Positions 18,849 to 25,855 of a DNA stretch of 46,578 bases are shown here, in pieces. Location of the stretch: positions 1 through 46,578 of the IMG/VR virus record IMGVR_UViG_3300045135_001915; one strand, written 5' to 3'. Numbering within the stretch: the first letter of the stretch is position 1; every line of letters begins with the position of its first letter. The position numbers and the translations under genes were made by a program. Origin of the DNA: a virus. The notes under the pieces are model-generated. The model did not search any database. It was not told the origin of the DNA and was given only the letters and a program-made list of their open reading frames with translations.

Positions 18849-19277
18849 ATGGCTAACTCTTGGTCCTTTTTATCTGATGAATTGAACATGGATACAGATA
18901 CTCTGAATCTAGGCACACCCATTAATGATGCTATTGGTGCTATGGGTGATGATCGTATTACTTTAAACTTTGACATGAACAAAGACCCCAATCGTTACAA
19001 GTATAGTGAGGATCAAATCCTCAAAGAACTAAAAGATTATATTTCCGGTACATACAACCAACATTATTCTGCTGGTGATGACAAGATTCAAACTTTGGAT
19101 CTGATTGAAGCATGTGGAGACGGTGAAGCATTCTGCCGTAGCAACATTCTCAAGTATGCCTCTCGTTATGATAAGAAAGGCACTGCACGTCGTGACATTA
19201 TGAAGATTCTGCATTATGCTGTGCTTCTGATGCATTTCAACGACAAGAATGCACAACGTGAAACTTACCCTCAGTGA
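18849..19277 (+). CDS. DUF3310 family protein (possible nucleotide kinase-like)
   Basis: 142 residues from ATG 18849 (MANSWSFLSDELN); the TTG at 18819 lies inside cobS. The C-terminal half matches DUF3310: NQHYSAGDDKIQTLDLIEA, then FCRSNILKYASRYDKKG, then DIMKILHYAVLL. In phage T7 a protein of this family (gp1.7) has nucleotide kinase activity, so a role in nucleotide metabolism is possible but unproven here. The N-terminal 55 residues are an unrelated extension. The stop overlaps the gp45 start. Confidence 0.75.
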   Translation: MANSWSFLSDELNMDTDTLNLGTPINDAIGAMGDDRITLNFDMNKDPNRYKYSEDQILKELKDYISGTYNQHYSAGDDKIQTLDLIEACGDGEAFCRSNILKYASRYDKKGTARRDIMKILHYAVLLMHFNDKNAQRETYPQ

Positions 19278-19960
19278 TGAAAACTCGACCTCCTATGAAA
19301 CTGTCTGATAAAACTCTTTCTGTCCTGAAGAATTTTTCTTCTATTAACCAGTCCATCCTTTTCAAGCAAGGCAATAAACTTCGCACTATCAGTGTGATGA
19401 AGAATATCCTTGCAGAAGCCACTATTACAGAGGAGTTCTCTAAAGACTTTGGTATTTACGATCTCAACCAGTTTCTAAATGGTATGAGTCTGCACCAAAG
19501 TCCTGAACTTGATTTTATCAATGATGGATACGTTGTTATCCGCGAAGGTAAAATGCGTTCCAAGTATTTCTTCGCAGATCCTAATGTCATTGTCACTCCC
19601 CCAGAAAAAGAAATTAATCTTCCTAGCGAAGATGTTTGCTTTGAACTGAGCACTGAGCAACTGGACAAACTTCTAAAAGCAGCTGCTGTATATCAACTTC
19701 CTGATATTTCTGCTGTTGGTGAAAATGGTGTTGTAAAACTTCTTGTCCGTGACAAGAAGAATGATACTTCCAATGATTTTGCTATCGTAGTTGGTGAAAC
19801 TGAAGCAGAGTTTTCTTTCAACTTTAAGGTAGAGAATATCAAGGTTCTTCCTGGAACTTATGAAGTTGTAGTCTCCCAGAAACTGCTTTCTCGTTTTACT
19901 TCAAAGAACCATGACCTCACTTACTACATCGCACTCGAACCCGATTCCACTTTCGGTTGA
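19277..19960 (+). CDS. gp45: Sliding clamp gp45
   Basis: Trimeric processivity clamp for DNA polymerase gp43, also the mobile activator of late transcription with gp55. 227 residues from ATG 19277, which overlaps the previous stop (TGATG); an in-frame ATG at 19295 (MKLSDKTLSVLKNF) aligns better with the T4 gp45 N-terminus and may be the true start. Family features: ISVMKNILAEATI, FGIYDLNQFLNG, and the C-terminal YYIALEPDSTFG resembling T4 YVVALEADST. Followed in TGATG overlap by the Coq4-like gene. Confidence 0.94.
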   Translation: MKTRPPMKLSDKTLSVLKNFSSINQSILFKQGNKLRTISVMKNILAEATITEEFSKDFGIYDLNQFLNGMSLHQSPELDFINDGYVVIREGKMRSKYFFADPNVIVTPPEKEINLPSEDVCFELSTEQLDKLLKAAAVYQLPDISAVGENGVVKLLVRDKKNDTSNDFAIVVGETEAEFSFNFKVENIKVLPGTYEVVVSQKLLSRFTSKNHDLTYYIALEPDSTFG

Positions 19961-20283
19961 TGGAACCAGATCCTTATATTCAGTTTCTTGAAAATTGGAT
20001 TCCTGGAATTGGAGAAGACACTAAACTTCATGATCAATTGCATATTCATTTTGGTCTTGGGTTTAGTGTGAATGATGAAGCACGATTACTTGGATTTCAA
20101 CTAGGACATCATCCAGCTGGAAACTTTTTCCATGTAGTCATTTTTTCTTTAATGAGTCTTACGATTTATCCTAAAGATTATCGTAACTCTTGGAAGGATG
20201 TGACAGATTTTTATCAGGCATACCTTCTTGGCAAGTATTGGCAATCTGTGCCATACTGGTTTATACCAAAGACAATTTTATGA
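19960..20283 (+). CDS. Coq4-like small metal-binding protein
   Basis: 107 residues. It contains the Coq4 family zinc-type motif in full: H24-D-Q-L-H28, exactly eleven residues, then E40, followed by ARLLGFQLGHH, matching the ELALLAF-type helix after the motif in Coq4. A short FYQAYLLGKYW segment near residue 84 also fits the Coq4 C-terminal region. Coq4 acts in ubiquinone biosynthesis, and cyanobacteria have a homologue, but this protein is about half the usual length and phage quinone metabolism is unproven. It lies between the clamp and clamp-loader genes, coupled at both ends by overlaps. Confidence 0.65.
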   Translation: MEPDPYIQFLENWIPGIGEDTKLHDQLHIHFGLGFSVNDEARLLGFQLGHHPAGNFFHVVIFSLMSLTIYPKDYRNSWKDVTDFYQAYLLGKYWQSVPYWFIPKTIL

Positions 20284-20807
20284 ACATCTTTGTTACTGAC
20301 CCCGATCCTTTGAAGTCTGCTAGGGTTCTTCCTGACAAACATATTGTCAAGATGCCACTAGAGACTTGTCAGATGCTTGCTATTGTATGCTCTGATAAAT
20401 GGGGTCATGGTTTTGGCACTCTTCCAAAGGCAGACGGTACTCCCTATGCCACTGAGAGGGGTGCTTTTCGCAATCACCCATGTACCATATGGGCAAACTC
20501 TTTTGTGAACAACTGGAGGTGGTTACTTGCTCATGGATTTGCTTTGTGTGATGAATATGCACTGAGGTATGGCAAACCACATACTTGCTTTAACACTCTT
20601 CAGGCAGCAAATGAAATTCTTCCATGTGCTGATCCTCAAGGACGCAGTGGTAAAGGACCAACATCTTTTGTGTTTGCTGGACCTGATGAATTTAAGTTGG
20701 ATACTTCAATATCCATCTTTGACAAATACAAGATGTATATTGCATCTAAACCTTGGGTATGCGATAATTATCTTCGTATCCCAGAACGAAAACCTGATTG
20801 GGTATAA
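20280..20807 (+). CDS. Conserved phage protein of unknown function
   Basis: 175 residues from ATG 20280 (MNIFVTDPDPLKSARVLPDK), overlapping the preceding gene by four bases (ATGA). The opening DPDPLKSARVLPDKHIVKMP, the NHPCTIWA and NNWRWLL blocks and LCDEYALRYGK belong to a family widespread in large phages, normally annotated as hypothetical. His, Asp and Lys residues are conserved in a manner suggesting an enzyme, possibly nucleic-acid acting, but I cannot name the reaction. Precedes the clamp loader gp44. Confidence 0.7.
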   Translation: MNIFVTDPDPLKSARVLPDKHIVKMPLETCQMLAIVCSDKWGHGFGTLPKADGTPYATERGAFRNHPCTIWANSFVNNWRWLLAHGFALCDEYALRYGKPHTCFNTLQAANEILPCADPQGRSGKGPTSFVFAGPDEFKLDTSISIFDKYKMYIASKPWVCDNYLRIPERKPDWV

Positions 20808-20809
20808 TT

Positions 20810-21757
20810 ATGAGTCGTGATGAATTTCTTTGGGTTGAAAAGTATCGGCCTAAAACTATTGAGCAATGTATTCTTCCTGATAATATCAAGAAGACCTTTA
20901 AAGACTTCCTAGATAAAGGGGAGGTTCCTAATCTACTCCTTGCAGGTCCTGCTGGGTGTGGTAAAACAACCGTAGCAAAAGCACTTTGTAACGAACTGGG
21001 GGTAGATGTTTATGTCATCAATGGATCCGATGAAGGACGATTCCTTGATACCGTCCGAAACACTGCGAAGAACTTCGCTTCGACCGTCTCGCTTGCATCA
21101 ACTGCAAAACACAAAGTCATCATCATTGATGAGGCAGATAACACAACCAACGATGTACAACTCCTCCTACGGGCGTTTACTGAGGAGTTTAGTGGCAACT
21201 GCAGGTTCATCTTCACCTGTAACTTCAAAAACAAAATCATTGAGCCACTCCACTCCCGATGCGCCTGTATTGATTTTTCAACCAATTCCAAAAGCAAACC
21301 CCAACTTGCAGCATCATTCTTCAAACGCATCCAAGAAATCTTGGCTGCAGAAAGTGTTGAATATGATAACAAGGTCCTGGTAGAACTAATCAATAAACAC
21401 TTCCCTGATTGGCGTCGTGTTTTGAATGAATGTCAGAGATATTCTGCGAGTGGCAAAATTGATACTGGTATTCTTGCAACCTTTAGTGATGTAAAAGTAA
21501 ATGACTTGGTTAAAAACCTTAAAGAGAAGAACTTTGCCGAAGTACGTAAATGGGTCGTTAATAACCTGGATAATGATTCTGGGGTACTTCTTCGTCGTAT
21601 TTACGATGCTCTTTGTGATGCCCTTGAAAACTCTAGCATTCCTGCTGCTGTGCTTGTTATTGCTAAGTATCAGTATCAGATTGCATTCGTAGCAGATCAA
21701 GAGATAAATATGCTTGCGTGTCTAACCGAAATTATGGTGGAGTGTGAATTCAAATGA
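20810..21757 (+). CDS. gp44: Clamp loader ATPase gp44
   Basis: Large subunit of the gp44/62 complex that opens gp45 and loads it on primed DNA. 315 residues from ATG 20810 (MSRDEFLWVEKYRPK), like T4 gp44 (319). AAA+ motifs: AGPAGCGKTTVAKAL near residues 45-59, Walker B VIIIDEADN, sensor 1 IFTCNFKNK, and the SRC arginine finger (HSRCACIDF). The WVEKYRPKTIEQCILP N-terminus is typical. Overlaps the next gene (ATGA). Its small partner gp62 is displaced to 23058, separated by three inserted genes. Confidence 0.96.
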   Translation: MSRDEFLWVEKYRPKTIEQCILPDNIKKTFKDFLDKGEVPNLLLAGPAGCGKTTVAKALCNELGVDVYVINGSDEGRFLDTVRNTAKNFASTVSLASTAKHKVIIIDEADNTTNDVQLLLRAFTEEFSGNCRFIFTCNFKNKIIEPLHSRCACIDFSTNSKSKPQLAASFFKRIQEILAAESVEYDNKVLVELINKHFPDWRRVLNECQRYSASGKIDTGILATFSDVKVNDLVKNLKEKNFAEVRKWVVNNLDNDSGVLLRRIYDALCDALENSSIPAAVLVIAKYQYQIAFVADQEINMLACLTEIMVECEFK

Positions 21758-24076: not shown

Positions 24077-25855
24077 ATGGCGAGAGAAATGCGCCCTAAT
24101 GATGCTTATGCTGAATTTGCATCTAATTTTGAGGAGTCTATTGGTAGTGCAATTTTTTTAGAATCTAAAGTAAAAGTCTATCCACTTCAGACAAGTGGTG
24201 GAAAATCTCACTATCAAGACAGAGAAATGCCTATAAAGTTGAAAAGAGCATTTCCAGAAATGAAATATATTTTTAGATTGTCTCCTACAAGAGAAGTTGC
24301 ATATGATGGAACGTTTGTTGATGTATCCGATTTGAGTGGAGATTATAATTTTGGATATGTTCCAGATCCACCAAGCACTGGTATTTTAGATGCGTTTGGT
24401 AAAATGCCAAACACTGTTCTTTGCATATCATGTACACACACATATTTCACTACAAATTTTGAGAGATTGCTCAAATATGCCAAAGATTCTGTTTTAGTCA
24501 TTGAAGAAGCACACCAATTTATTGGTGCTGCTGATCCAGGTAGTGAATCTTATGTTATTAACTTTGGATATACTGGGGAATATACTGCAGAAACTTGGCA
24601 AAGGATTGCAAAGTGGAGAGATGTAAATCCAAGAATTATTGGTTTTACTGCAACTCCAACTGAACATCACAAAGGACATTCATCACTTAGTGATCAGTTT
24701 AGAGTTTGTGGAAAACTTGCTGATAAAAAAGTTATTCTTCCATCACAAGCATGGATTAATCCTCCACATTCATATTCCTTTACTAAGTATCAAGGTCAAT
24801 CATCTGTTGAACCTGCTATTCATCAAAGCATTGATTTGCTTTTTGAAAGGGAGCAAAGATTGACTGATCTAAAGTATTTTACTATTGATATGGATGATGA
24901 TACTTATGAAAAACTTCAGTATTTGAAGAAAGCAATGTCCATGGAAACGGACGAGCAAGTGCTTAAAAAATCTTTAGAAGAATATTGGAAATCTGAGTTT
25001 GGTGATGAACTTCTTGAAGTTTCTGATAATTTTAGATCAGATAAAGATGGTCAAATTAACACTAAACTAACTGCTCTATATGTTTGTGGAGATTCGCGGG
25101 GTGTTTGGGGATGTTCTATTGATGAGGTAAGAGAAACAATTGCTAAATATCTGCTTGCTGATTGTGGATATGAAGAATCTGATAAAATGATCGCCACTAT
25201 GGTAGAGGATAGTAGTGGAGGAAATACGATTTGGACTCTTGGTGGGGTTGCTTCTGAAAAAGTAGACAATCCAACATTAATGAAAAAACTTCATAGTGAA
25301 AGTGATCCTCTTCGGTTTCTTCTTGTAATTAACAGAGGTCGTTCTGGAATTAATGTTCATAATTTAACTGCTGGAGTCATTTGTAGGATTAGGGATCCCA
25401 AAGAAGTTAGAACACCAATTCCCATTCAAATTTTTGGAAGAATGGTTAGACTTAATTCTGGAACTGGAGATTTGGTACGAAAAAAATATATGAATAATCT
25501 GGATAATTACTTAAAGTATTATCCTAAAGATTACAGTGTTAGCATTGAGACAGTCATTGAAACCATTAAGGTAGCAAATGTTTTTGATATCTGGCATCCA
25601 ACTAATGGAAAAGCAAAAAGAACCTGGGAACAATCACTTGAAGAATTTCAGCAAGATTATGTAAATACTTCTAAAGAAGGATTTGAATACTTATATGAAT
25701 TTACTGGAGTTGATAAACCAAAACCAAAACCAATTAACTTGGAGATAGAAGTTGAGTGTCCATGTGATGGTAGTAAGTTTATGGTGAACGTAAATAAAGA
25801 GGTTAATGATTGGAAAGGTGATGGCACTCTAGACGCATTTTTTGATATGGTGTAA
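24077..25855 (+). CDS. SF2 helicase-like ATPase with internal ribbon-helix-helix-like segment
   Basis: 592 residues. Helicase motifs are present but divergent: Walker A QTSGGKSHY (38-46), motif II VIEEAHQ (141-147, EEAH in place of DEAH), motif III GFTATP (189-194) and motif VI QIFGRMVRLN (451-460), with RGRSGINVHN before it. Residues about 266-304 (KYFTIDMDDDTYEKLQ, then QVLKKSLEEYWKSE) look like a ribbon-helix-helix DNA-binding unit between the two helicase lobes. A CPC motif near 561 starts a small C-terminal part. It is distinct from UvsW. A monocistronic late unit between promoter and terminator, so a late role in DNA or packaging is inferred only. Confidence 0.75.
   Translation: MAREMRPNDAYAEFASNFEESIGSAIFLESKVKVYPLQTSGGKSHYQDREMPIKLKRAFPEMKYIFRLSPTREVAYDGTFVDVSDLSGDYNFGYVPDPPSTGILDAFGKMPNTVLCISCTHTYFTTNFERLLKYAKDSVLVIEEAHQFIGAADPGSESYVINFGYTGEYTAETWQRIAKWRDVNPRIIGFTATPTEHHKGHSSLSDQFRVCGKLADKKVILPSQAWINPPHSYSFTKYQGQSSVEPAIHQSIDLLFEREQRLTDLKYFTIDMDDDTYEKLQYLKKAMSMETDEQVLKKSLEEYWKSEFGDELLEVSDNFRSDKDGQINTKLTALYVCGDSRGVWGCSIDEVRETIAKYLLADCGYEESDKMIATMVEDSSGGNTIWTLGGVASEKVDNPTLMKKLHSESDPLRFLLVINRGRSGINVHNLTAGVICRIRDPKEVRTPIPIQIFGRMVRLNSGTGDLVRKKYMNNLDNYLKYYPKDYSVSIETVIETIKVANVFDIWHPTNGKAKRTWEQSLEEFQQDYVNTSKEGFEYLYEFTGVDKPKPKPINLEIEVECPCDGSKFMVNVNKEVNDWKGDGTLDAFFDMV

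Follow-up and report, generated by a model that had tools for sequence, protein, structure and literature searches.

Can a phage gene of little more than one hundred codons encode a member of the Coq4 family, and if so, what might its product do in an infected cyanobacterium? This question is raised by a small open reading frame in IMG/VR virus record IMGVR_UViG_3300045135_001915, which we analysed over its whole length of 46,578 nucleotides (hereafter the window). The other genes of the window include gp20, gp23, DNA polymerase, UvsX, a DnaB-like helicase and a RegA-type gene. At the DNA level, the window is closest to the Synechococcus myoviruses Bellamy and S-SM2. Judged by this T4-type gene set and DNA similarity, the source of the window is therefore a T4-like cyanophage.

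The gene follows gp45, the sliding clamp gene, and precedes a DenV-like PF03013 gene and gp44 (Table 1). Its start overlaps the stop of gp45 by one base (TGATG), and its stop overlaps the start of the DenV-like gene by four bases (ATGA). The gene is thus part of a tightly packed and probably co-translated run from gp45 to gp44, in agreement with a first-pass annotation that had placed a 107-residue protein in the replication block. The replication region of the window also holds a 592-residue open reading frame (24077-25855) that matches no PHROG or Pfam family.

Table 1. Coordinates of the Coq4-superfamily-like gene, its predicted motif residues and its neighbours in the window.
Feature	Position	Strand	Evidence
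gp45 sliding clamp, upstream neighbour	19277..19960	+	PHROG 223, E 4e-89
Coq4-superfamily-like gene, 107 aa plus stop (ATG at 19960; TGA stop 20281-20283)	19960..20283	+	ORF; viral relatives; dN/dS; model
HDxxH part of predicted metal site (H24, 20029-20031; D25, 20032-20034; H28, 20041-20043)	20029..20043	+	Invariant in family alignment A6; same residues at Mg2+ site of Nostoc Alr8543 (PMC9774615)
E40, fourth predicted metal ligand, 11 residues after H28	20077..20079	+	Invariant in alignment A6; kept in nearly all distinct sequences
G91 of last long helix, near conserved GxxxG(K/R) of Coq4 in profile alignment	20230..20232	+	Invariant in A6; hhalign A6 vs A4
DenV-like pyrimidine dimer DNA glycosylase, downstream neighbour	20280..20807	+	PF03013 50.6 bits; PHROG 624
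gp44 clamp loader, other border of cargo slot	20810..21757	+	PHROG 168, E 6e-135

Searches of viral contigs returned 92 confirmed relatives with a single-protein query and 115-116 with alignment queries, and the median dN/dS between the window gene and relatives with unsaturated dS is 0.066. The open reading frame is a real gene, syntenic and under purifying selection. Most of its phage relatives lie, as here, between gp45 and gp44. In the isolates Bellamy, S-SM2, P-TIM68 and SynMITS9220M01 this slot holds speD instead, joined in S-SM2 and SynMITS9220M01 by denV, and across the phage loci 21 of the neighbours that lie one or two positions away from the Coq4-like gene are SpeD relatives. The only annotated phages with the gene are those of the Aurunvirus group (S-TIM5, S-TIM54, S-TIM61 and S-TIM66). 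The Aurunvirus hypothetical proteins are 85-86% identical orthologues of the window protein, although their gene lies downstream of a helicase gene and its product is not named Coq4-like. In another phage locus (L242) the gene follows a transaldolase gene and precedes nucleotide-sugar genes. Given these different genomic places, the Coq4-like gene behaves as portable cargo. Host homologues, a variable cargo slot occupied by speD or denV in isolates, and retention by selection are together the marks of an auxiliary metabolic gene. Two further observations concern these loci: cyanophage S-TIM54 (L082) carries a copy disrupted by a stop or frameshift, and the gene is often (for example in L068 and L071) immediately flanked by small hydrophobic proteins of 68-101 residues, which fall into two clusters, one of 35 and one of 11.

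The likeness to Coq4 begins with the motif HDQLH-x11-E, which falls within the HDxxH-x10-13-E pattern of the Coq4 metal site through H24, D25, H28 and E40. Its residues and exact spacing are as the first-pass annotation had read them, whereas the "ALL-F" helix reported to follow E40 does not literally exist, the letters being E-A-R-L-L-G-F. The motif occurs once among the open reading frames of the window (14,839 residues), and it arises in 137 of 200,000 shuffles of the protein (0.07%). By itself and without conservation, such a motif is suggestive only; it goes beyond chance because it is conserved across the family. HDxxH-x11-E is kept in nearly all distinct family sequences extracted (78 of 79), the exceptions being an internally deleted copy and a broken or fragment copy. 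In A6, a 38-row family alignment that reaches down to 25% identity, the invariant positions are H24, D25, H28, E40, G45, F46, G49 and G91.

Direct tests for Coq4 membership gave a different picture. The first-pass annotation had proposed a search with the Coq4 profile PF05019 (Pfam cut-off 22.9 bits), and this returned no match to the protein at E<=10 and none elsewhere in the window. Likewise, the protein has no match in Pfam, NCBIfam or PHROGs by hmmscan or in the PDB by phmmer, and profile searches of the PDB with alignments A1, A3 and A5 gave only a chance match to HutD, with A1. Two other histidine-rich families were considered and set aside. A membrane fatty-acid desaturase is excluded by the size of the protein, 107 residues against three histidine boxes in about 300 residues, and by the lack of a Pfam match; an HD-domain phosphohydrolase, with H...HD...D ligands, is excluded by the lack of a Pfam match and by the invariant residues, which are those of HDxxH-x11-E.

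Structure prediction places the motif residues on successive helices. Two AlphaFold models, computed from alignments that left out remote relatives, have mean pLDDT values of 82.8 and 87.1, the second with a pTM of 0.83. HDxxH is modelled in a helix spanning residues 21-30 and E40 in the next helix, residues 37-50. With the first model, Foldseek against the PDB lists Nostoc Coq4 (6E12) at a non-significant E of 9.8, with a TM score of 0.47 that is higher than that of any other entry. The list for the second model, which has the higher confidence, lacks 6E12 and contains no significant fold match. Foldseek against viral models gave no match.

Relatives in cells provide the intermediates through which Coq4 can be approached. 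A genome scan identified proteins of about 115 residues in Synechococcus RCC307 (464314-464628) and Synechococcus MAG SW22112_bin_11 that are 68-70% identical to the phage protein over residues 3-107. These homologues are sporadic in cells, and in three cyanobacterial genomes (L150, L151 and L152) the copy seems to carry a frameshift, a stop or an internal deletion. When 300 genomes of the RCC307 family were searched with a profile, fifteen gave matches, some close and some remote. The remote matches are proteins of 150-200 residues with HDCLH-x11-E, which are also found in larger cyanobacteria and of which none was found in the viral contigs. This cyanobacterial family, which has no Pfam or NCBIfam name, shares with the phage protein the HDxxH-x11-E, GFxxG, YPxxYR and G(K/R) blocks (for example RCC307 2153318-2153761), and a profile of the phage and RCC307 sequences aligns to it over 80 columns with an hhalign probability of 98.6 and an E of 5e-16. 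In contrast to the phage protein, its members are longer at both ends and keep a Coq4-like C-terminal stretch. As a separate observation, at four loci (L143, L141, L302 and L304) the cellular homologue has a gene for a high-light-inducible-type protein no more than a few kb away.

In a tree of phage and cellular sequences, a branch with support 64/90 sets the 36 phage sequences apart, with the picocyanobacterial ones as their neighbours, and the family of 150-200 residues forms a well supported outgroup (99/99). A single transfer between host and phage would be the simplest reading of this moderately supported arrangement, and from the direction that we infer, the gene was probably taken from a cyanobacterial host.

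Compared directly with Coq4, the profile of the phage and RCC307 sequences reaches a probability of only 16%, and the link therefore depends on the intermediates. The chain runs from the phage protein to the picocyanobacterial proteins of about 115 residues (68% identical), from these to the cyanobacterial proteins of 150-200 residues, and from there to Coq4. When the wider family alignment A6 is compared by hhalign with A4, an alignment of 27 PF05019 proteins from cyanobacteria, 106 columns are aligned at a score of 55.7 and a probability of 94.7%, and the HDxxH-x11-E motifs of the two profiles fall in register. Sixty column-permuted Coq4 profiles score at most 20.2, a reversed profile 13.4 and twelve real unrelated families 12-20. 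The comparison with Coq4 still scores 35.6 with the four motif residues masked and 36.0 with residues 21-41 masked, and the part after residue 41 alone scores 36.4, part of that tail existing only in the longer relatives. At the level of sequence profiles, the motif is thus not the whole of the Coq4 signal. This kinship is further connected by bridging proteins of about 340 residues with HDxxH-x11-E, which match A6 at 96% and Coq4 at 98% and have subthreshold PF05019 matches. They combine a TerB-like N-terminal half with a Coq4-like C-terminal half, which led us to reject the view that matches to open reading frames of about 345 residues were due to chance. Many picocyanobacterial genomes (L228-L241, for example L230:1267-2280 and L233:1285-2322, both on the minus strand) encode such TerB-like proteins of about 340 residues with HDCCH-x11-E, in which the Coq4-like domain is unannotated and falls below the PF05019 cut-off.

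The earlier description of the protein as Coq4-like consequently stands in part: superfamily kinship is supported through the cyanobacterial intermediates and the profile comparison, but the direct PF05019 test does not bear it out. Like the phage protein, Coq4 proteins (human COQ4; Nostoc Alr8543, PDB 6E12; PDB 3MSQ) have the motif invariant, in register and, as modelled for the phage protein, on two successive helices. They differ in length, about 220 against 107 residues, and in having an N-terminal helical half and a C-terminal PLxxxRxxLxI, both absent from the phage protein, which begins 23 residues before the motif and ends in YWFIPKTIL. A PLxxxRxxLxI-type stretch is present in the relatives of 150-200 residues. 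Because both PF05019 membership and the full-length architecture fail, the phage protein is, on sequence grounds, a Coq4-superfamily-like variant and not a Coq4.

What such a variant might do is best approached through its better studied relatives. In an ancestral animal COQ4, HDxxH-x11-E is needed for Zn-dependent C1 decarboxylation (PMC7615680), and a structure of Nostoc Alr8543 that contains oleic acid has Mg2+ bound by the motif (PMC9774615). A Coq4 gene has also been noted in a lanthipeptide/polyketide cluster of Synechococcus (PMC10783134), a hint at other chemistry. On the model of COQ4 and Alr8543, the phage protein would probably bind a metal and have a phenolic or prenylated hydrophobic molecule as its substrate. 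We lean, by a little better than even judgement, towards a minimal and remote member of the Coq4 superfamily, a host-derived auxiliary gene in a cyanophage cargo slot, with divalent-metal Lewis-acid chemistry. The gene would have been taken long ago from a picocyanobacterial host and then kept as an auxiliary gene in the cargo slot of T4-like cyanophages. With H24, D25, H28 and E40 drawn together by the two helices, the protein would hold a divalent metal (Zn or Mg). Its most likely action during infection would be that of a Lewis acid on a small molecule that is hydrophobic, associated with membranes and either phenolic or prenylated, as in the Zn-dependent C1 decarboxylation by Coq4. A minimal metal-dependent enzyme, which the first-pass annotation had offered as an alternative, is the one of its readings that fits best, with metal binding, activity and substrate class predicted from the relatives.

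Other explanations fit parts of the evidence. Convergence, in which an unrelated small helical family shares HDxxH-x11-E by chance, would account for the weak direct score between phage and Coq4 profiles and for the lack of a significant Foldseek match. We consider it unlikely, as the family with its motif masked still scores well above the decoys against Coq4, the alignment of 106 columns is in register, and the bridging proteins join the two families. A protein with a Coq4-like fold need not be an enzyme, and the half-size core could be a small lipid- or prenol-binding or scaffolding protein with a structural metal site, perhaps one that acts on membranes or on light-harvesting complexes. 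Alr8543 has both a fatty acid and Mg2+ bound, Coq4 has been described too as an organiser of the CoQ complex (PMC9774615), and small hydrophobic proteins often adjoin the gene in phage relatives. The four putative ligands are nevertheless invariant even at 25% identity, and a simple binding pocket usually needs less; this reading is a doubtful one, though to be taken seriously.

More specific is the proposal that the gene encodes a true Coq4 family enzyme of host plastoquinone synthesis, which would boost or redirect the plastoquinone pool during infection. The phage motif is identical to that of Coq4, the profiles are remotely related, and cyanophages carry photosynthetic electron-transport genes (PMC5082946). 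Against this, PF05019 matches neither the phage protein nor the window, and the window genes that we examined include no identified quinone gene. In a phylum-wide sample of 146 cyanobacteria, PF05019 itself is present in only 36; among 300 picocyanobacteria it is present in 144, and genomes that have it often carry 2-6 copies. Since plastoquinone is made by every oxygenic cyanobacterium, a family that is patchy and multi-copy is not the universal step of its synthesis. Even less common is the phage-type gene (15 of 300 genomes, including the remote group), and no conserved operon or gene partner was found for the cellular homologues. The redirection of quinone metabolism suggested earlier thus lacks support, and we regard a plastoquinone enzyme as very improbable. 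As for the RCC307-family genomes themselves, PF05019 Coq4 reaches six copies there, though these organisms use plastoquinone.

Returning to the minimal metal enzyme of the Coq4 superfamily, its wider meaning can be stated conditionally. Through their auxiliary genes, cyanophages alter photosynthesis and the flow of carbon in the ocean. More than 110 viral contigs carry this gene, whose protein matches no Pfam, NCBIfam or PHROG family, and a literature search on Coq4 and phage gave no relevant paper. A tentative possibility, which we would put short of even, is that it represents, in marine cyanophages, a new and so far unnamed class of auxiliary gene that modifies a prenylated or phenolic host lipid to favour infection and contains the smallest catalytic core of the Coq4 fold. 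If the protein is indeed a half-size Coq4, the metal site of Coq4, a subject of much debate, could be studied in a compact model, and the gene would point to a lipid or quinone-like infection target in the host that has not yet been considered.
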